From contig JAAYVD010000050.1 of the NCBI GenBank assembly GCA_012517355.1, positions 87,350-128,690 of the forward strand: 41,341 nucleotides of DNA. The letters run 5' to 3'. This document shows positions 5,145 through 38,187 of this stretch, one piece after another. The notes under the pieces were generated by a model. It saw only the letters and a list, made by a program, of their open reading frames with translations, did not search any database and had not been told where the DNA came from. Made by a program: the position numbers and the translations under genes. This DNA comes from Candidatus Rifleibacteriota bacterium (lineage in GTDB: Bacteria > Muiribacteriota > Ozemobacteria > Ozemobacterales > Ozemobacteraceae). How positions within the stretch are numbered: position 1 is the first letter of the stretch; the number at the start of each line of letters is the position of its first letter.

Positions 5145-7622
5145 TCACTCCACCACCAGGGGCGAGGGTTCGAAACTGAAGCCCAGCAGCGGCTCCTCGC
5201 TCTGTTCCGCGGGCGGCGGCTCCCCGGTGCCCGGCCGGGGGGTGGGCAGCGCGGCCAGGGCCGGAAAGTAGGTCAGGGTGCCTCCGGGGAACCCGGCCAG
5301 GTCGGCCGGGCCCGTGCAGAACCGCTTCATCACCACGTTGCCGGTCACCTGCAGGCCGGGCCCGCCGCCGAAGACCACCCGCCCGCCCGCCACCAGCGAC
5401 GCCTGCACGCGCGCCCCGGCCGGCGTCTCGAGACGGATGTCCCCCCGGGGGGCGGCCAGCAGCAGGATCTCCCGGGACCGGGCCGGGAACTGGGGTTCGA
5501 GGGGGGCCCGCACCACCCAGTCGCCGTCCTCCAGGACCAGCGCGCCGTTGCCGACGAACCGCCAGGGCCGCTCGAGGACCACCCGCCGGTCGGCGCTGGA
5601 GACCACCACCAGCCCGTCCAGGAACAGCACGTCCCGCCACAGCAGTCCCCGGCGTTGCAGCGCGGTGGACAGATCGGGGTCGCCCGCCCCCGGCAGCTCG
5701 ATCCGGTGGGTCACCCGCCCCGCCGCCCCCAGCGAGGCCAGGAAGGGGGCCATCTCCCGCAGGGTGGCCCCCGCCGGGGCGGCCCGGACGAAGGGAGCGG
5801 GCACCCCGTGCAGGGCATCCGCAGGAATGACAGGTCGGAAGAAATCGTACAAATGATCACTTTCGGACACGACCGTCCAGGGATCGGGAACCCGGTTGTT
5901 GTGCGCGAACGCCAGGCCGAGGTTGTACGACCGGCTGGCCACGAACGAACTGTAGTGCAGCAGGTAGCGGGCGAGCTCCCCCCGGATCGGCGAGAGCAGC
6001 CCCGCCCGCACCAGCGGCACCAGCTTGCCGTTGGCGGTCTGCGCCTCGATCAGGAACCGGTCCTCCTCCTCGTACAAAAACAGCCGTTCCCGCGTCCGGC
6101 CCTCCGGGCTGTTCCAGGGCGGGCCGGCCAGCGGCGGCCAGGCGTAGATGCGCGCCAGCAGGGTCATCGACCGGACGTCCCCCAGCACCAGGGTCGGCGA
6201 CCGGTTGCCGTCCACCCCGTTGGGGCGAAGCAGGGAACTGGATTCCACCCGCAGGGTGTCCCGGAAGGCCGGCCACAGACCCGGCGCAAACTCCCGGATC
6301 AGGTCGTAGAACAGCCGCACGCTGTTGTGCGGGCTGGGGGACATGCCTACGTCCATCTGGAACAGGTCGAGGGGCTGTCCATCGGGAGTGCGGGTCGCCA
6401 GCACCTTGTAGAAACCGTCCCCGTTGGGGCGGCGGAACAGCTGGAACCCCTCCCCCGCCCCCGATCCCGCGTTCCCCGGCGGGGAATGGGCCAGGTTCAG
6501 CACCACCGTGCCGGTGCCCCCGAGGTAGACCAGGCCACGCGGGCCGGTCACCAGGTCCCGCCAGGTGGTCGGCACCGGCAGCGGTCCGTGCGGACCACCG
6601 TGATCCCCGTCCGCGTCGAAGACCAGGGGACGGGCGGGCGAGGTGGCGAGCACCTCGCCGTTCTCGTCGACCGCCACCTGGTTCAGCCCGTGGAACGACC
6701 CTGGCCCCGGCTGCCCCATGTCTTCCGCGTAGAAGACGAATTTCGACAGCACCGGCACCAGCGCCGCCGTCACCTTCACCCGGCACCGGAACTGGAACTC
6801 CTCCACCAGCTCCGGCCGCGCCCCCTTCCGCTGCCGCACCACCACGGTCAGGCGAACCGCCCCCCGCTTCTCCCGCGGATATCCCGCCGCCGCCAGCCCG
6901 GTTTCCTCGAAATCCTCCGGCTCGCACCGGTAGCGGATCTCGAACCCGAATGACCCTTCGCGCGCCAGGGGAGCGGTGAGCGCCTGCCCCACCGCGAACA
7001 GGTCGCTGGTCGCGGTCTCCTCCAGGTCCACCTGGCCTGTCACCGGCCGCATCTCCGACCGCGGCCTGGCCAGTTCCCGGAACAGCGGGGCCAGGGACGG
7101 GCTATCGGCGTCGGTCACGGGGAACGGACCGTTCCCGCCCTGGGCCAGCAGCGGCCCATACTGCAACTTGTGCACCGCCAGCGTCGCCAGGCCGAACGCC
7201 GCCCGCGACAGGATGCCCTGTTTCCCAGCCCGCTCGCTGAGCCGCCGCTGCTGCAGCATGTAGTGGAAATACCCGACCGCGAACAGGGTCACGCAGAAAA
7301 GGGTCCCGACCGCGATCAGCAGGAACGAACCCCGACGGCCCCTGGGCGGTGCGCGAAACCCGCGCTGCGCGCCGCCATTCCTGACGGCAAAGGGGAAGCC
7401 CTTCCGACGTCGTGTCGGTCGGGTCCGACCGGCAGGAGATCGGATGGTCTTCCCTGTTGCCTCCAGCGACGGCAGCGCGAAACCCCCGTTCCCCGCCTCG
7501 CCGGGGGACCGCCCGGGCTGACCTCGGCAGAGCCTTCCCGTGGCCACCGCGGGGAAAGCCGCGCATCCCCCGGTTCGCGCCTTCCCAAGGAACCCTCCGG
7601 CCGACGCTAGGGGCGACACCAT
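5145..7622 (-). CDS. Large GspK/PilX-like envelope protein with pilin-type N-terminus
   Basis: About 825 residues. A pilin-like motif, RRG|SFLLIAVGTLFCVTLFAVGY, is followed by a helical segment (LQQRRLSERAGKQGILSRAAF) as in PilX/GspK-type minor pilins. Then comes a very large region I do not recognise, far longer than ordinary GspK (about 320 residues). The stretch before the cleavage site, roughly residues 1-100, is made of two to three copies of the dispersed palindromic element; the nearer copies contain no in-frame ATG, GTG or TTG, so translation must start upstream, and I chose ATG 7622. This lies 16 bases after the stop of the SH3 gene. Probably part of an envelope-spanning pseudopilus or surface assembly with the two downstream pilin-like proteins. 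Confidence 0.75.
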   Translation of the reverse strand: MVSPLASAGGFLGKARTGGCAAFPAVATGRLCRGQPGRSPGEAGNGGFALPSLEATGKTIRSPAGRTRPTRRRKGFPFAVRNGGAQRGFRAPPRGRRGSFLLIAVGTLFCVTLFAVGYFHYMLQQRRLSERAGKQGILSRAAFGLATLAVHKLQYGPLLAQGGNGPFPVTDADSPSLAPLFRELARPRSEMRPVTGQVDLEETATSDLFAVGQALTAPLAREGSFGFEIRYRCEPEDFEETGLAAAGYPREKRGAVRLTVVVRQRKGARPELVEEFQFRCRVKVTAALVPVLSKFVFYAEDMGQPGPGSFHGLNQVAVDENGEVLATSPARPLVFDADGDHGGPHGPLPVPTTWRDLVTGPRGLVYLGGTGTVVLNLAHSPPGNAGSGAGEGFQLFRRPNGDGFYKVLATRTPDGQPLDLFQMDVGMSPSPHNSVRLFYDLIREFAPGLWPAFRDTLRVESSSLLRPNGVDGNRSPTLVLGDVRSMTLLARIYAWPPLAGPPWNSPEGRTRERLFLYEEEDRFLIEAQTANGKLVPLVRAGLLSPIRGELARYLLHYSSFVASRSYNLGLAFAHNNRVPDPWTVVSESDHLYDFFRPVIPADALHGVPAPFVRAAPAGATLREMAPFLASLGAAGRVTHRIELPGAGDPDLSTALQRRGLLWRDVLFLDGLVVVSSADRRVVLERPWRFVGNGALVLEDGDWVVRAPLEPQFPARSREILLLAAPRGDIRLETPAGARVQASLVAGGRVVFGGGPGLQVTGNVVMKRFCTGPADLAGFPGGTLTYFPALAALPTPRPGTGEPPPAEQSEEPLLGFSFEPSPLVVE
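7338..7423 (-). repeat. Dispersed palindromic element, copy R2
   Basis: Minus-strand copy starting CCCGACCGACACGACGTCGG, then CCCCTTTGCCGTC and GGTTTCGCGCACCG. It is in frame within the prepilin leader of the 5145-7622 gene, immediately before the RRG cleavage motif, and is read as RPTRRRKGFPFAVRNGGAQ. It is head to head with R3. Confidence 0.85.
7424..7510 (+). repeat. Dispersed palindromic element, degenerate copy R3
   Basis: Plus-strand copy with CCGACCGGCAGGAGATCGG, then CCCTGTTGCCTCC, GGCAGCGCGAAACCCCCGTT and CCGGGGGA. Its 5' end abuts the 5' end of R2, forming an inverted pair in the same leader region. Confidence 0.65.
7520..7600 (+). repeat. Possible further degenerate palindromic element, R4
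   Basis: CTCGGCAGAGCCTTCCC, GGGGAAAGCCGCGC and GGTTCGCGCCTTCCC follow the order of element blocks but with many changes. It lies just downstream of the chosen ATG 7622 of the same gene. Confidence 0.35.
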
Positions 7623-7638
7623 GGAACCCCGTCCCCGG

Positions 7639-8250
7639 TCAGCGACGTGTCGCCGGCTTGAGCAGCCGGCCGAGCGAGGCCACCAGGGCGGGATCGGCCC
7701 GCGGGGCCATCGGCCGCACCCGCGCCGGGTCGCGACGGGTGGCGGCATCCTCCTGCTCCTTCAACAACCGCAGGAGCGTGGGCTCACCGACCCCGCCGGG
7801 GGGGGCTTCCTGGTCCTCGATCTGCAGGTAGCTTCCCCAGACCCATCCCCCGTCGGGGAACTTCGGACAGACCACGCGGGCGAAAAAGCCGTCCACCGTG
7901 ATCAGCTGCACCACATCGCCATTCGAGATGAACCCGAGCCGGGGCGCGGCCTGGCTGGGCTCCTTGAACACCAGCAGGTTGCCCCCATAGGGAGGGGCGG
8001 TCGACACGCCCTCGACCCGGGCGGTCCGCGGGGCCGCCTCCGTCTGGGCCGGCGCCGGCCGGCCGCCGGCGGCAAGGAGGAGCAGCACCAGAAGCAGCCC
8101 CACCCACGTCACGACCGCCCACCCCTTCTGCCGCAAGACCGACCCCGGCTCCGGGGTCCTGGTCTGGCTCTCGAGCCTTGACCGGACGGATGACCGGACT
8201 TCGCGGTCAGGAAAACGGAGATCCTCGGGCCATGACGTCAGCTGATCCAT
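7639..8250 (-). CDS. Exported or membrane-anchored SH3-like protein
   Basis: 203 residues. ATG 8250 has AAAGGA four bases upstream. About 40 charged residues precede a hydrophobic segment (AVVTWVGLLLVLLLLAAGG) that ends in GRPAPAQ, which could be a signal peptide or an N-terminal anchor. The following region (GNLLVFKEPSQAAPRLGFISNGDVVQLITVDGFFARV) looks like a bacterial SH3 fold, with WVWGSYLQIEDQ as its end strand. The family is usually periplasmic and binds peptide or wall material; the exact ligand is unknown. It is the first gene of the minus-strand pilin-like operon, with its own sigma-70-type promoter, so it may serve the same surface structure. Confidence 0.75.
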   Translation of the reverse strand: MDQLTSWPEDLRFPDREVRSSVRSRLESQTRTPEPGSVLRQKGWAVVTWVGLLLVLLLLAAGGRPAPAQTEAAPRTARVEGVSTAPPYGGNLLVFKEPSQAAPRLGFISNGDVVQLITVDGFFARVVCPKFPDGGWVWGSYLQIEDQEAPPGGVGEPTLLRLLKEQEDAATRRDPARVRPMAPRADPALVASLGRLLKPATRR

Positions 8251-11643: not shown

Positions 11644-12066
11644 TATCGAATTCGAAACGCGGGGCCAACCAGACCCCCCAAAAAACACGAATCCACCCCG
11701 CCGGATCCGCTGCATCTCCGATCAGCGTATCCCGAAGGGGTGATGGGCTGCCTAAGCGGCCCCGCCTGGACGGCGGGAGTGGCAGGGGGCTCGCCGCCCG
11801 CGTCAGGTCCGCCGAATGCGGCATTCGGCCGGGGCGCGCAGCCGGCCAGGGGCCGGGCGCAAGCGGCATTACAGGCGGCGCCACGGAAGGCGCCGGCTGG
11901 AAGGACGCTTGTCCTTCTCCCGACCCCGGTGCCGCCTTCCCGGCGGGAGCCCGCAGGGAAGTGTTTCGCGAAACCCCGTCGCGACCAGCCGTTCAGAGCG
12001 GGGCGCGCAGCCGGGGGCGCCCAGCCCGGCCCCGCAGCCGGCGGGCGCCGCCGAAGCCACGGGGCC
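11627..12066. repeat. Long GC-rich direct repeat, copy 1
   Basis: Begins GGATTCTGGGGACGTGATAT and is collinear with copy 2 at 12964 (offset 1,337 bp). Shared blocks include a hairpin-forming CCCCGCCTGgACGGCGGG-like stretch, GAATGCGGCATTCGGCC, AAGTGTTTCGCGAAACCCCG and GGGCGCGCAGCCGGGGGCGC. No credible coding frame. It lies directly downstream (3') of the YafQ-type toxin gene. Confidence 0.85.
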
Positions 12067-12963: not shown

Positions 12964-13427
12964 GGATTCTGGGGACGTGATATCGAATTCGAAACGCGGG
13001 GCCAACCGACCCTCACAAAACACGAATCCAACCCCCCGGATCCGCTGCCTCTCCAATCAGCGTACCACGAAGGGGTGATGGGTTGCCTAGGCGGCCCCGC
13101 CTGAACGGCGGGACTGGCAGGGGGCTCGCCGCCCGCGTCAGGTCCGCCGAATGCGGCATTCGGCCGGGGCGCGCAGCCGGCCAGGGGCCATGCGCAAGGC
13201 ACATGACAAGACGCCCCAGGGAAGGCGAGGCTTGGCGTGGGCCTTGTCCTTCTCCCGTTCCCGGTGCCGCCTTCCCTGCGGGAGCCCGCAGGGAAGTGTT
13301 TCGCGAAACCCCGCCGCGACCAGCCGTTCAGAGCGGGGCGCGCAGCCGGGGGCGCCCAGCCCGGGCGCGCAGCCGGGGGCGTTCAGCCCTGCCCCGCAAC
13401 CGGCGGGCGCCGGAGCCAAGGGGCCGC
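12964..13427. repeat. Long GC-rich direct repeat, copy 2
   Basis: Same order of blocks as copy 1, starting GGATTCTGGGGACGTGATAT. It differs by small indels and by an internal duplication of GCGCGCAGCCGGGGGCG near 13337-13382. It lies 3' of the YgiT-type antitoxin gene, just as copy 1 lies 3' of the YafQ gene. The flanking stretch 13428-13568 shows no gene. Confidence 0.85.
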
Positions 13428-26425: not shown

Positions 26426-26645
26426 TGGAGGCATCCCAGGCCGGCCCTGTCACCTGTCAGCGGGTCCGGCGGCCGCAGACTCACCGCCCCGACCCGGCCT
26501 CCCATAATTCTCACCATGTGATCTGGAGCGGTTTCCCGACCCGTTACGGCCTGCCTTTCCGATGGGGACGGATTCTGCCGGGATCGCCATCCATCAGGAA
26601 AGCCAAGGATCGCTGAGTGGGAATTGCTGCCCGGCCTCCCCCTGA

Positions 26646-26675
26646 TTGGACGACTCCCCGAAAAAGGGGTAACAT
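26646..26675 (+). promoter_or_regulatory. Sigma-70-type promoter for TonB-dependent receptor
   Basis: TTGGAC (26646-26651), 18-bp spacer, TAACAT (26670-26675). It lies downstream of ATG 26617 and overlaps ATG 26674, which argues against both as starts. Confidence 0.6.
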
Positions 26676-26739
26676 GGGACCGGATGTCCCGCCCCCGGCT
26701 GGCCTGCAGAGAAGTCCAGATGGGGCGGGCCAAGGTGTG

Positions 26740-26754
26740 AGGAGGCAGATCGTG
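26740..26754 (+). promoter_or_regulatory. Shine-Dalgarno deciding the TonB receptor start
   Basis: AGGAGG at 26740-26745, six bases (CAGATC), then GTG at 26752. This places initiation upstream of palindromic element R7, so R7 must be translated. Confidence 0.8.
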
Positions 26755-28950
26755 GTCAGCCCGAGAGAGAGGTGTCCGGTTTCGTCCCGCCCGGGAGAAG
26801 ACCGTCCCCGGAAGAGGTGGTTTGGGAACCGGACCTGCGCGACGTCGGAATGGCTTCCCCTTTGCCGCCAAGGATGGCAACGCGCAACACCCGCTTCGGG
26901 CACCCCGAGGGGAACATCGTCGGGCCCCCACCGGCCCGCACCGTTCCGCCCCGCCCCCCTGGCAGGACTGGCGTTCTGCCTTGGGCTCCTCTGGACGCTC
27001 GTCGCCTGCCCGGCCACCGGCGCTTCCGTCCCCCAGAACCGGTCCTTGCAGGAACTGGTAAGCCTCAGCCTCGAAGACCTGGCCAACGTGGTCGTGTCGA
27101 CCCCGTCCAAGAGCGCCCAGCGCCTGCCCGAGGTTCCCGCCACCGTCCGCGTCATCACCGCCCAGGACCTCCGCGACCGTGGCTGTCTCACCCTCGAGGA
27201 GGCCCTCGCCGACCTTCCCGGCATCCAGTTCCGCAACCTCGTCGGGTTTAACGGGTATGCCTTTTTCCGGGGGGTTCCCAACCAGAACAACCACGTCCTC
27301 CTCATGATCGACGGGGTGCAGGTCAACGAACTCAACTCCGGTGGGTTCTACCTGGGCGGCCAGTACAACCTGGCCAACGTCGAACGCATCGAGGTCGTCT
27401 ACGGCCCCGCCTCCTCGATGTACGGCACCAACGCGGTCGGCGGGGTGATCAACCTCATCACCCGCGACCCGCAGGACACCCCCGGACTCCGTGTCAGCAC
27501 GCTCTTTGGCGGGTTCGACACCCGGCGGCAGGACTTCACCTGGCGATCGCACGACGCGGAGCAGGACCTCGGGATCAGCCTGTCGGGCATGCTCAAGTCG
27601 GGTGACAAGGCCGACCTGCGCGGTTCGCGCGGCGACGGGAACTGGTCCGGTTCCCTCGACACCTCCGAACAGGACGCCGCCCTCGACGCCAAAATCCGCT
27701 GCCGGCGCGTCACCGTGGGCCTGAACCTGCTCGACAAGGAAGCCTCCTATGCGACGAAAGACCGCAGCACCGGCACCGCCCTGCAGGATTTCGACGTCCC
27801 CTGGCACATCCGGTTCCTGAACACCTGGGCCCGGTATGACTTCCGGCGGGCCGACCGCTGGTCGTGGAGCTCCACCGCCTACTACCGCGACACCACCGTC
27901 GAAGACGACACCCGCCCCGTGATCAGCCGGCCCACCGCGACCGACCCGGGCTACCGGGAACGCTGGTTCCGCCCCAACCACCTGGTCGGGCTCGAGAACC
28001 GGTACGACGGCACCCTCGGGCCTCACCTTTCCCTCAACCTGGGACATTTGCGGGAAACCGAAACGCTGGCCGCCGGGTTCGCCAGGTCCCGCAGCGCCGC
28101 CTGGTCCGTGGAGCCCGAGGCCCCGGCCCGGCCGGACATGCTCACCAACGACCTGACCAGCCTCTACGCCCAGCTCACCTGGCACCTGTCCGAGCCGCTG
28201 CGCCTGACGGTCGGCTCCCGTTACGACGACAGCGACGTCTACGGCACCGTGAACACCCCGCGGCTGGGGCTGGTCTACAACCGGGGCCGGTGCAACGCCA
28301 AGCTCCTCTACGCCGAAGCCTACCGGGCCCCCAAGCCCTGGGATTTCCGCGACGGGCTGGGCAACCCCGACCTCGCCCCCGAAACCATGCGCTCGTCCGA
28401 ACTGGCCGTGGGATACCGGTTCGCCGAAAACCTGCGAGCCGAGATCTCCCTCTATCGGAACGTGCTCGCCAACTGCCTGACCCGGGAAAACTCCGCCGCC
28501 GGCTGGCGGTGGGTCAACCTGGGCAAGGTGCGCACGACCGGGTGTGAAGGAACCCTGGAATACCGCCGGGGCAAGGGTAGGTCCTACCTGAACCTCACCT
28601 ACACCGATGCCGACGATTCCACCGGCCGGGCCGTGCCCGAGATCGCCCTCCACACGGCGAACGCGGGATGCCAGTATGCCTTCACCGACCGGGTGAAGTT
28701 CGATCTCCGCGGGCAGTATCTCGGCCGCCGGCGGAACCCCCCGACCACGGCGGCCGGGGGCGACCCCGAGATCGACGATGCCTTCGTGATGAACGGGACG
28801 CTGAGCCTCGCCGACGTCGCCGGATGCGACGTCCAGATCGCCGGCCGCAACCTTCTCGACGCGAAGTATTTCCACACTTCGAACACCACCGTGAGCCGCT
28901 ACCGGCAGCCGCAACGGTCTGTCTCCCTCGAGATCGCCCGTCGGTTCTGA
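26752..28950 (+). CDS. TonB-dependent outer-membrane receptor with element-derived signal-peptide extension
   Basis: 732 residues from GTG 26752. About 65 polar residues, of which some 28 come from element R7, precede the signal-peptide core (LAGLAFCLGLLWTLVACPATGA). The plug follows: SLEDLANVVVSTPSKSAQRL, VRVITAQDLRDRG, LADLPGIQF, DGVQVNEL, and NVERIEVVYGPASSMYGTNA with GGVINLITR. The remainder is a beta-barrel ending in the terminal aromatic strand RSVSLEIARRF. It imports a chelated nutrient (siderophore, haem, cobalamin or other metal complex) using TonB energy; specificity is not evident and no TonB or ABC partner is in the window. No in-frame ATG, GTG or TTG lies between R7 and the hydrophobic core. 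Confidence 0.92.
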   Translation: MVSPRERCPVSSRPGEDRPRKRWFGNRTCATSEWLPLCRQGWQRATPASGTPRGTSSGPHRPAPFRPAPLAGLAFCLGLLWTLVACPATGASVPQNRSLQELVSLSLEDLANVVVSTPSKSAQRLPEVPATVRVITAQDLRDRGCLTLEEALADLPGIQFRNLVGFNGYAFFRGVPNQNNHVLLMIDGVQVNELNSGGFYLGGQYNLANVERIEVVYGPASSMYGTNAVGGVINLITRDPQDTPGLRVSTLFGGFDTRRQDFTWRSHDAEQDLGISLSGMLKSGDKADLRGSRGDGNWSGSLDTSEQDAALDAKIRCRRVTVGLNLLDKEASYATKDRSTGTALQDFDVPWHIRFLNTWARYDFRRADRWSWSSTAYYRDTTVEDDTRPVISRPTATDPGYRERWFRPNHLVGLENRYDGTLGPHLSLNLGHLRETETLAAGFARSRSAAWSVEPEAPARPDMLTNDLTSLYAQLTWHLSEPLRLTVGSRYDDSDVYGTVNTPRLGLVYNRGRCNAKLLYAEAYRAPKPWDFRDGLGNPDLAPETMRSSELAVGYRFAENLRAEISLYRNVLANCLTRENSAAGWRWVNLGKVRTTGCEGTLEYRRGKGRSYLNLTYTDADDSTGRAVPEIALHTANAGCQYAFTDRVKFDLRGQYLGRRRNPPTTAAGGDPEIDDAFVMNGTLSLADVAGCDVQIAGRNLLDAKYFHTSNTTVSRYRQPQRSVSLEIARRF
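26829..26914 (+). repeat. Dispersed palindromic element, copy R7
   Basis: Blocks CCGGACCTGCGCGACGTCGG, CTTCCCCTTTGCCGCCA, GGATGGCAACGCGCAACACC and CCCCGAGGGGAAC. Inside the TonB receptor gene, between the start and signal-peptide core, read as CATSEWLPLCRQGWQRATPA. The structure has partly decayed. Confidence 0.8.
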
Positions 28951-29044: not shown

Positions 29045-29073
29045 TTGCGGGACAGCCGACTCCCTGCTACATT
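29045..29073 (+). promoter_or_regulatory. Sigma-70-type promoter for beta-propeller gene
   Basis: TTGCGG (29045-29050), 17-bp spacer, TACATT (29068-29073), 31 bases before ATG 29105. Confidence 0.6.
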
Positions 29074-29104
29074 GGGCAGGAAGATCCTCCGGGAAGGAAC
29101 CATC

Positions 29105-30427
29105 ATGACCCGTCACCAGTCCGCCTGGCCACGCGAACGACACGCCGTCGGCAAGGCTTCCCCTGTGCCGCCACCAAGGGCGGCACGAAACCCCTGTGGC
29201 GCGCCCCGCCCGGGGGCAGGCCGTGACGAAGGGGGCCACCCTCTTTCGCCGCCCCGGAGGGGGGCCCGCAACCTCCGTTTCGCGCCTCGCCAGCGAGCCC
29301 TCAGATGGTTGGGCTTGGCCATCGTTCTCCTGGCGGTGGCCGGGTCGGGCCCGGTCGGGGCGGCCGCTCCCCGGCCCGACCGACACGACGTCGGAAGTGC
29401 CCCCTTGCCGCCAGGGATGGCGGCGCGAAACGCCAGTTTCGCGCATCGCAAGGGGGCCGACCGACACGACGTCGGAAGTGGGCCGCGGGCGCCAGGATGG
29501 CGCATCCTCCGCGGACCCACCCCCGCCATCCAAGCCCAGTGGCAGGAGCAGGCGCGGCTGGCCGAACGGGCCGCCCTGCCCTGGGTCACCGACATCGAGA
29601 CCTGGCACGAGCGCCGCACCCTCGCCGTGGCCCGCCACGACTTCCCCAGCCTCCTCCGCCTGCGCGACACCGAATGGCGCATCTACTGGAACGAGGAACG
29701 CTCGGGCGGGATCACGAGTGCCCTGTCGATCGACGGCGCCACGGAATTCCGCAGTGAGCCCGACTTCCGCATCCGCAACGGCGGCCGCGGCTCACCCGAG
29801 GCCGTCGTCGGCCACCCGTGGGTCGTCCCCCTCGCCACCGGGTTCCGGATGTACTACCACGGCGACGCACGCTGGCAGCCGCGGGTCGGGGAAGCTCCGA
29901 TCATGCGCGTGTTCAGCGCCTGGTCCCGGAACGGCCGCCACTTCTTCGGCGAGGGGGTCCGCCTCGACCTCGGCGACCGCACCGGCCTCGACCTCGCCGC
30001 CCACCCCTGTGTCCGCCCCATGCCCGACGGCACCTGGCGGATGTGGTTCACCGCCGTCCGCAACGGATCCGGAGGCCGCCCGTGCGTCCTCGGGGCCGCC
30101 TCGGCCGACGGCCTCGCCTGGCGGCCCGACCCCGTCCCGACCATGGACGGAGCCTCCGATCCCCTGGTGTTCGAGCGGGCTGGACGCTGGGTCATGTTCG
30201 CCCGGTTCGGCGCCGACAACGTGCTGCTGCTGAGTTCCCCCGACGGACTCGTCTTCCACCCCCAGGCCTGGGTCGAGTTCTTCGACGCCCGCGGCCTCCG
30301 ACTCTCCGGCTTCGTCCCCGCCGAGGTGCTCGACGCCGCCGACGGCCGGGTGCGGGTGCTGGGCACCGGCGACCATTCGCGCGGTCTCGGCCTGTTCGAG
30401 CGGCACGAAAACCGATGGCCCCACTGA
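29105..30427 (+). CDS. Secreted five-bladed beta-propeller (GH43/GH32-like) protein with elements around its signal peptide
   Basis: 440 residues. ATG 29105 follows AAGGA. Residues of about 9-65 derive from elements R8 and R9. The signal-peptide core follows (LRWLGLAIVLLAVAGSGPV, about 66-84), then residues 91-138 from R10 and R11. The mature part repeats blade-like strands: WRIYWNEERSGGITSALS, GFRMYYHGDARWQ, TWRMWFTAVRNGSGGRPCVL, SADGLAWRPDPVPTMDGASD, and RWVMFARFGADNVLLLSSPD. This is the pattern of glycoside hydrolase clan beta-propellers, though the catalytic acids cannot be assigned with confidence. It may hydrolyse or bind an extracellular glycan. Finding an export signal sandwiched between two element pairs in one open frame is very unusual. 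Confidence 0.8.
   Translation: MTRHQSAWPRERHAVGKASPVPPPRAARNPCGAPRPGAGRDEGGHPLSPPRRGARNLRFAPRQRALRWLGLAIVLLAVAGSGPVGAAAPRPDRHDVGSAPLPPGMAARNASFAHRKGADRHDVGSGPRAPGWRILRGPTPAIQAQWQEQARLAERAALPWVTDIETWHERRTLAVARHDFPSLLRLRDTEWRIYWNEERSGGITSALSIDGATEFRSEPDFRIRNGGRGSPEAVVGHPWVVPLATGFRMYYHGDARWQPRVGEAPIMRVFSAWSRNGRHFFGEGVRLDLGDRTGLDLAAHPCVRPMPDGTWRMWFTAVRNGSGGRPCVLGAASADGLAWRPDPVPTMDGASDPLVFERAGRWVMFARFGADNVLLLSSPDGLVFHPQAWVEFFDARGLRLSGFVPAEVLDAADGRVRVLGTGDHSRGLGLFERHENRWPH
29131..29216 (+). repeat. Dispersed palindromic element, copy R8 (degenerate)
   Basis: CGAACGACACGCCGTCGG, GCTTCCCCTGTGCCGCC, GGGCGGCACGAAACCCC and CGGGGGC. In frame between start and signal peptide of the propeller gene. Confidence 0.7.
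29217..29299 (+). repeat. Dispersed palindromic element, copy R9 (degenerate)
   Basis: CCGTGACGAAGGGGGC, CCTCTTTCGCCGCCCCGG, CCCGCAACCTCCGTTTCGCG and CTCGCCAGCGAG. Adjoins R8 and runs up to the signal-peptide core. Confidence 0.65.
29376..29457 (+). repeat. Dispersed palindromic element, copy R10
   Basis: CCGACCGACACGACGTCGGA, outer stem CCCCCTTGC/GCAAGGGGG, arms CGCCAgggaTGGCG and GCGAAACgccaGTTTCGC, all intact. The outer stem has C-G where R14 has T-A, a compensatory change. In frame just after the signal peptide. Confidence 0.9.
29457..29520 (+). repeat. Dispersed palindromic element, partial copy R11
   Basis: Begins CCGACCGACACGACGTCGGA, sharing its first bases with the end of R10, then diverges after GGCCGCGGGCGCCAGGATGG. 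In frame in the propeller gene. Confidence 0.7.
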
Positions 30428-36848: not shown

Positions 36849-38030
36849 TTATTTCGAAATCGTGATCGTCCAGGTGGCCGCCGCGGCGTCGAACCCGGCC
36901 ACGGCGTCGGTGTGGGAAAGGACCCCATCGGAGTTGACCACCACCCGCTGGAAGGCCAGGCGGTCCTCGCCCGACCAGACGGGGGCATGCGGGCCCCAGT
37001 CCTCGCCCTCGAAGGTGGCCTCCAGGGTGGCTTTTCCCTGCCGCACCGCGTAGATCTTCAAGGCGTTGGCCAGATACCCGGCCTGCAGATCGAGACTGGC
37101 CGTGCAGAAACGCGTCCAGCCGGGAGAAAAGACCGGCACATGGTCGAGCTGGACCTTTTCCCCGGACTTCAGCAGAACCAGGGTGCAGCCGCTCCATTCC
37201 CAGCCGGTGGCAAAGAGCACCACCATCCGCACCTCGGGGAAGAACCGCCCGAAACAATACCGGATACACGATTCGCCATACGACAGGTCGTCCTCGAACC
37301 GGAGGGTGCGACCGGCGTCCGTCCTGACCAGAAGGGTCCGCACCTCGCGTTTCACCACCCCACCGGTCTCGGCCAGCCGCCGCTCCTCGTCCCTGACCCA
37401 CGCTCCCAGGCTCTGCCCATACCAGTCCATGGAATAGGGGGGGGCCTGCGAGAGGTCTTCCTCCACGGGATCGGTCGAGACGAACCCGCCGAACACATAC
37501 CCCTCGCGGCCGTCCACCCGCACCTTCCACCAGAACTCTTCCCGGCCCTCGATCGTCTCCTGCTTTCCCTGGCGGGTCTCGACGACTTCCAGCCGCGTCC
37601 CGTAGGCGACCCGGCCCAGGGGCTTCCCCTGCCGGTCAGGGGTCGCGCGCAGCACCAGGCCGCTCTTGGCACTGACCAGGCCGGTCGGCAAGGGTGGCTC
37701 CTTCTCCTCCGCCGACGGCTCTCCATCCGGGGCGTCCGCCATCCGGGGGGCTGATCCGACCGACACGATGTCGGCCATACCCCTTTGCCGCCACGGATGG
37801 CGGCGCGAAACGCCGGTTTCGCGCACCGCAAAGGGGCCCTCCACCGACACGGTCTGGGAGGCCCCATCCAAGACGGTTCCGGCCTGGGCGGCTCCAGCCT
37901 GGGCGGCTCCAGCCTGGGCAGGCACCGGCGCCAGGAACAGCCAGGCACCGAGCCAGGCCATTCCGACCACCCCGATCACGTTGGCCTGCACCCACGAACC
38001 CGGCGCCATACGAATCCTGCGGATCTTCAT
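36849..38030 (-). CDS. Exported SH3 protein with palindromic element after its signal peptide
   Basis: 393 residues from ATG 38030. The signal peptide (VIGVVGMAWLGAWLFLAPVP) is followed by a 15-bp triplicate giving QAGAAQAGAAQAG, then residues of about 64-92 encoded by element R14 (GPFAVRETGVSRRHPWRQRG), and a Glu/Pro-rich linker. A bacterial SH3 domain follows (SGLVLRATPDRQGKPLGRVA to FWWKVRVDGREGYVFGGFVS, about 120-190). The last 200 residues are beta-rich (TLRFEDDLSYGESCIRYCFG, VVLFATGWEWSGCTLVLLKS) and I do not recognise them. Probably periplasmic, ligand unknown. Third exported SH3 protein of this window; the other two are at 7639 and 30591. Confidence 0.82.
   Translation of the reverse strand: MKIRRIRMAPGSWVQANVIGVVGMAWLGAWLFLAPVPAQAGAAQAGAAQAGTVLDGASQTVSVEGPFAVRETGVSRRHPWRQRGMADIVSVGSAPRMADAPDGEPSAEEKEPPLPTGLVSAKSGLVLRATPDRQGKPLGRVAYGTRLEVVETRQGKQETIEGREEFWWKVRVDGREGYVFGGFVSTDPVEEDLSQAPPYSMDWYGQSLGAWVRDEERRLAETGGVVKREVRTLLVRTDAGRTLRFEDDLSYGESCIRYCFGRFFPEVRMVVLFATGWEWSGCTLVLLKSGEKVQLDHVPVFSPGWTRFCTASLDLQAGYLANALKIYAVRQGKATLEATFEGEDWGPHAPVWSGEDRLAFQRVVVNSDGVLSHTDAVAGFDAAAATWTITISK
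37756..37838 (+). repeat. Dispersed palindromic element, copy R14 (most intact)
   Basis: CCGACacgatGTCGG hairpin, then outer stem CCCCTTTGC (37780-37788) with GCAAAGGGG (37828-37836), enclosing CGCCAcggaTGGCG (37789-37802) and a 9-bp arm GCGCGAAAC/GTTTCGCGC with loop GCCG (37803-37824). A perfect three-way junction. It lies in frame in the SH3 gene on the opposite strand. Confidence 0.95.
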
Positions 38031-38059
38031 CACCAACACCCCCTGTCCGGTCTCCCCGC

Positions 38060-38065
38060 ATTGTA
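38060..38065 (-). promoter_or_regulatory. Extended -10 for exported SH3 gene
   Basis: TGTTACAAT on the minus strand (TACAAT at 38065-38060), 30 bases before ATG 38030; -35 weak. Confidence 0.5.
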
Positions 38066-38187
38066 ACAGACCCCCCGGCCGGCAACACACCAGGCGGGGT
38101 GGTGCGGGCGGGGTGGTGACCCCCGGTCTCCTGTGTTACAGTGGGCGCGGGCGCCTGACGCGCCAATCACGGTATTGGAGTGAGCCC

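Follow-up and report, generated by a model that had tools for sequence, protein, structure and literature searches.

A dispersed 89-92 nt repeat is probably translated in the signal peptide n-region of a TonB-dependent receptor of a Candidatus Rifleibacteriota bacterium

Introduction

The DNA analysed here, referred to below as the window, is a stretch of 41,341 nt from a Candidatus Rifleibacteriota bacterium (GCA_012517355.1, contig JAAYVD010000050.1) in which an 89-92 nt repeat occurs about twelve times. One of the copies, element R7, sits between the ribosome site of a TonB-dependent receptor gene and the hydrophobic core of the receptor's signal peptide, which raises the question whether the repeat is translated as part of the leader. 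Repeats that code in frame have been described in Rickettsia, Wolbachia and Methanocaldococcus (PMC2229807, PMC2759123, PMC10969869). The Rickettsia palindromic elements, as later papers relate them, are short, structured, multi-copy elements that lie in frame in protein genes and are apparently translated (Ogata et al., 2000, 2002, via PMC2229807 and PMC10969869). In Yersinia, part of one signal peptide comes from a repeat, RU-2/YPAL at locus YPO1552 (Delihas, 2007, PMC2759123). A text search of the literature for palindromic repeats in Riflebacteria found nothing.

The Receptor Gene and Its Leader

The receptor open reading frame extends from 26617 to 28950 and is in frame with GTG 26752. 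Its plug (PF07715, 80.5 bits) and barrel (PF00593, 120.2 bits) both score above the Pfam cut-offs, and together they form 650 residues that are open, conserved and codon-adapted. The in-frame start codons are GTG 26617, ATG 26674, GTG 26737 and GTG 26752 only. The original prediction had placed the sole good ribosome site, AGGAGG, upstream of R7, and our estimates agree: the predicted pairing with the 16S tail at GTG 26752 is -12.2 kcal/mol, a strength equalled by the best site of only ∼2% of 794 genes with a nearby start and reached by 0.10% of background start codons out of frame inside genes and 0.25% of intergenic ones. It had also stated that no in-frame ATG, GTG or TTG lies between R7 and the hydrophobic core LAGLAFCLGLLWTLVAC at 26959; none was found there, and GTG 26752 is the last in-frame start.

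R7 is a true but decayed copy of the repeat (47.6 bits, E 8e-8) as scored with model R2, which was built only from copies outside the window and hence without R7. Its length corresponds to ∼30-31 codons, so that the predicted contribution of about 28 n-region residues is supported as to translation and needs correction as to size. All three forward frames are open at R7, which by itself says little because the genome is 68% GC. We consider it very probable, judging from the start codons, the ribosome site, the homologous leaders and the recurrence of this arrangement in other genes at a rate above chance, that R7 is translated as ∼30 extra n-region residues from GTG 26752. An ancestral repeat copy would have entered the receptor leader downstream of the start codon and ahead of the hydrophobic core; since the R7 frame is open, ribosomes starting at GTG 26752, the likely start codon, would read through it, and the receptor would gain ∼30 net positive residues in a leader of 85-92 residues that signal peptidase should remove. 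The expected leader of roughly 85 residues agrees with the 85 residues that precede the Cys of LVAC; cleavage after GA/GAS would make it 91-92. The features of a Sec signal peptide (positive n-region, hydrophobic core and cleavage site) can all be read in the receptor. The LVAC at the end of the core (26998-27009) is compatible with a lipobox; the close homologues have no such lipobox fit. Feature coordinates are given in Table 1.

Comparison with receptors that lack the insert agreed with this reading. The leaders of four close homologues (55-60% identity) are ordinary, align at an F-R/K position and contain no insert, and since this position is kept directly after R7, the element lies within the n-region. 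In 66 homologues from many phyla, the distance from the start to the conserved QELVSLSLEDL stretch has a median of 29 residues and reaches 59 at most when the best ribosome site is used to set the start; from GTG 26752 the distance is 99 residues, of which R7 accounts for ∼31. A same-genus orthologue of this receptor was not found, so its empty site was not observed directly. The receptor N-terminus of a same-family relative (G007) is the same as that in Candidatus Riflebacteria nHGRbin4, which puts the organism in the vicinity of Riflebacteria/Wallbacteria.

Table 1. Features of the receptor locus, further repeat copies in the window, and genes elsewhere in the genome compared with orthologues.
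Feature	Position	Strand	Remarks
Second dispersed RNA-like motif	26495..26645	+	Upstream of receptor; 139 bits with model R3, which includes 26495-26645
Promoter-like string TTGGAC-18-TAACAT	26646..26675	+	Weak; 7/12 match to sigma-70 consensus
Shine-Dalgarno AGGAGG	26740..26745	+	6 nt before GTG 26752; -12.2 kcal/mol, top 2% of genes
TonB-dependent receptor gene	26752..28950	+	Read from GTG 26752; 732 aa; plug and barrel domains
n-region preceding R7	26752..26831	+	∼27 residues
Element R7	26832..26923	+	Decayed copy of the 89-92 nt repeat; read as ∼30 residues (TCATSEWLPLCRQGWQRATPASGTPRGTSSG)
n-region following R7	26924..26958	+	PHRPAPFRPAP; F-R/K position common to homologues
Hydrophobic core and cleavage region	26959..27027	+	LAGLAFCLGLLWTLVACPATGAS; LVAC also compatible with lipobox
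Repeat copy	7329..7420	-	Directly before prepilin-like hydrophobic N-terminus (GRRG|SFLLIAVGTLFC), ORF 5145-7748 (-)
Repeat copy	29135..29226	+	Between ATG 29105 and signal core, ORF 29045-30427
Repeat copy	29378..29466	+	Directly after signal core, ORF 29045-30427; orthologues without copy
Repeat copy	37758..37846	+	Read antisense directly after signal peptide, ORF 36849-38090 (-), SH3_3 domain protein
Gene with repeat in leader	C34:38503		Orthologue without element; SD -12.8 vs -13.4; orthologue most distant, 38% identity
Gene with repeat in leader	C22:75432		Orthologue without element; SD -10.3 vs -11.6
Gene with repeat in leader	C7:50271		Element absent in one of two orthologues; SD -11.8 vs -8.5
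Gene with repeat in leader	C34:176546		Orthologue keeps start and core, without element
Gene with repeat in leader	C19:28586		Orthologue keeps start and core, without element
Gene with repeat in leader	C10:97553		Prepilin-like leader of ∼10 residues before FTIVEV, ∼40 with element; orthologues without element

Alternative Explanations

Translation could instead begin in or after R7, either at ATG 26850 or ATG 26874 if an indel or assembly error lies near the C-run at 26954-26959, or at the non-standard CTG 26959. Both ATG codons are present in another frame that stays open, the element frame yields MATRNTRFGHPEG..., a plausible n-region, and a codon model trained on this genome gives a coding signal at the receptor from 26944 only. 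Two further genes of this genome (C19:28586 and C19:76809) may use an in-element GTG with a strong site. However, ATG 26850, ATG 26874 and CTG 26959 have no ribosome site (0.1, 1.9 and 1.2 kcal/mol, respectively, against the value at GTG 26752), and a start in another frame requires an assumed undetected frameshift; we regard a start in or after R7 as unlikely. As for the coding signal, the segment 26752-26943 scores -0.91 bits per codon, lower than every 64-codon coding window, and at first this counted against translation of R7. The argument was dropped because poor scores are also the rule for natural n-regions that have a good ribosome site (mean -0.26 bits per codon, 18% at or below -0.9); six inserts backed by orthologues score -0.15 to -0.53, and codon use does not discriminate in n-regions.

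The R7-bearing n-region would have 69 residues, the 99th percentile of natural n-regions in the genome being 42. This great length and the decay of R7 itself would fit a leader broken by the insertion, with R7 not usefully translated and the receptor gene decaying; yet plug and barrel are open, conserved and codon-adapted, and the gene is intact although R7 has diverged considerably since insertion, which leaves this reading hardly any probability. Only slightly better placed, and still very unlikely, is the view that R7 goes untranslated and works as a folded RNA of the 5' leader, perhaps as a regulator. In the fold of the repeat consensus, a small 5' hairpin (CCGAC...GTCGG) precedes a three-way junction whose closing strands are CCCCTTTG/CAAAGGGG, and most copies lie outside coding-scored segments. 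R7 retains only 20 of the 27 consensus pairs, however, shuffles fold as well as the receptor 5' region does (z -0.22), and copies before genes occur in both orientations. Pairing across the copies is high but covariation is not above that of shuffles, as expected if repeat copies decay freely after insertion. Translation of R7 from GTG 26752 is the best of these readings.

The Repeat Family and Its Place in Export Leaders

We counted 114 repeat copies in 1.18 Mb of the genome and, with the cut-off made stricter, 59 in another 0.79 Mb, which extrapolates to ∼600 copies in the 7.11 Mb genome. Six matches were found in one further genome of the genus and none in the 34 other genomes of the phylum that were searched; no Rfam match of the palindromic coding-repeat kind was found. 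Flanks were compared by eye, empty sites being too diverged, and the 5' edge usually follows CC with no clear duplication. The genome has one Y1_Tnp gene (C109:4387-4713), and repeat copies lie on the same contig at 11354-11523.

Within 1.21 Mb of sampled sequence, many copies are in an open frame that has a start before the copy and a hydrophobic core after it, the core being that of a signal peptide or of a leader resembling a prepilin's. Orthologues, mainly same-genus ones plus a few belonging to different genera in the family, were compared for ten genes and three more, and for six genes they have a comparable start and core without the element (Table 1). The orthologue of C34:38503 may be a paralogue. 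At C19:28586 the true start may be the in-element GTG with its strong site, in which case part and not all of the element is translated; at C19:76809 the element may supply the start. At C19:28586-28608, L071:17317 and L123:11032, the 5' hairpin CACGAGGTCGG is changed to CAGGAGGTCGG or similar, which yields a ribosome-site-like AGGAGG near an in-element GTG. The G002 orthologue of C7:50271 (L228, G002:C78) also has a very long leader that is not obviously derived from the 89-92 nt repeat. The remaining comparisons are less clear; for C7:27491 and for the copy at window 7329-7420, some orthologues are also long-leadered. The ORF at 29045-30427 (window 29105-29530) seems to carry copies on both sides of its signal core, and its same-genus orthologues are without them. 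A copy at C19:65442 in a DegT-type aminotransferase was set aside as a case of insertion, since the orthologues show unrelated variable loops at that place.

We then defined a leader class of non-coding-scored copies that are in an open frame, have a start codon within them or upstream but none between the copy and a hydrophobic segment, and show a coding signal beyond. In the first sample 14 of 91 copies belonged to this class, while non-coding-scored positions taken at random lead one to expect 3.6 (p 1.5e-5). Because the class had been drawn up after viewing this sample, the unchanged definition was applied to a further 0.79 Mb, where it took in 6 of 54 copies versus 1.7 expected (p 0.0067). 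The pooled count over ∼2 Mb is 20/145 versus 5.3 expected (p 4e-7), with copies found by two models (R1, then R2), tandem neighbours that are not fully independent, and a high base rate, a hydrophobic N-terminus being present in 182 of 404 well-started genes (45%). The matching class without a hydrophobic segment contained 0 copies. The consensus has no stop codon in any of its six frames, a property shared by 2.5% of its shuffled versions and by 14% of intergenic 89-mers, and the consensus peptides are net positive in all six frames (+2 to +9); the peptides of 21 leader-class copies have a mean charge of +4.3. The front end of the leader looks like a place that tolerates selfish DNA. Insertions would be tolerated, and would persist, because the n-region needs positive charge and can accept extra positive residues, and because the leader is removed after export.

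Comparison With Known Repeats

The repeat appears to work like the known in-frame coding repeats. It shares with the Rickettsia palindromic elements the in-frame insertion in protein genes that stay open. Those elements are 105-146 bp single stem-loops with terminal inverted repeats, described in conserved proteins such as guanylate kinase, whereas the present repeat has 89-92 nt, a small hairpin plus a three-way junction, and copies that concentrate in leader n-regions; its host, unlike theirs, is a 68% GC uncultured bacterium with Riflebacteria/Wallbacteria relatives. In the enterobacterial RU-2/YPAL, described for single loci, the repeat carries hydrophobic residues, whereas here it gives a positive n-region and recurs ∼20 times in 2 Mb. 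With REP/REPIN and MITE-type repeats (e.g., PMC3733652) it has in common hundreds of copies, hairpins, tandem arrays, a mostly intergenic location and restriction to a species; terminal repeats and target duplications did not stand out in the flanks compared by eye, nor did a transposase that would match it. The concentration of a repeat in export leaders looks new. The extended signal peptides of autotransporters also combine a very long n-region with an ordinary core and are a conserved family trait, in contrast to the long n-region here, which would stem from repeat insertion in one species.

Few lineages are known to carry coding palindromic repeats, and here the insertions favour a protein part that is cut off after export; an n-region that needs only positive charge offers a simple and testable reason for their tolerance. 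Repeat-bearing leaders may serve as natural experiments on permissible n-region length, and in genomes of this sort many exported proteins will be given wrong starts by automatic start calling. More tentatively, the family might be shaped for translation in export leaders, sometimes supplying the start codon and ribosome site, with n-regions as a genome-wide refuge for selfish DNA: a repeat that is open and net positive in six frames would give a working leader when inserted either way between start and core. We find this broader idea possible and rather doubtful; if it were true, perhaps 70-80 exported proteins of the species would have repeat-derived leaders.

Upstream Elements and a Local Duplication

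The promoter TTGGAC-18-TAACAT proposed upstream of the receptor did not hold up: the string is present, but its agreement with the sigma-70 consensus is no better than chance and it was not recovered in the scan. A 5' end at 26682, also proposed, was not borne out either, as a second dispersed motif at 26495-26645 suggests a transcript start further upstream; if this motif is transcribed with the receptor gene, the 5' end is not at 26682. The motif is structured and RNA-like, ∼150 nt long and present in ∼100 copies in the genome (e.g., C19:101202-101352, C22:103905-104055 and C145:8730-8880), with tandem pairs at C164, C96 and C181, and is nearly absent from relatives. It lies upstream of a same-strand gene in 11 of 14 sampled cases, mostly 40-180 nt before it. 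No Rfam match was found for it, and it is either riboswitch-like or another repeat. Elsewhere in the window, two 300-nt stretches (11675-11974 and 13010-13309; spacing 1335) are 88% alike with matching flanks, which indicates a local duplication.
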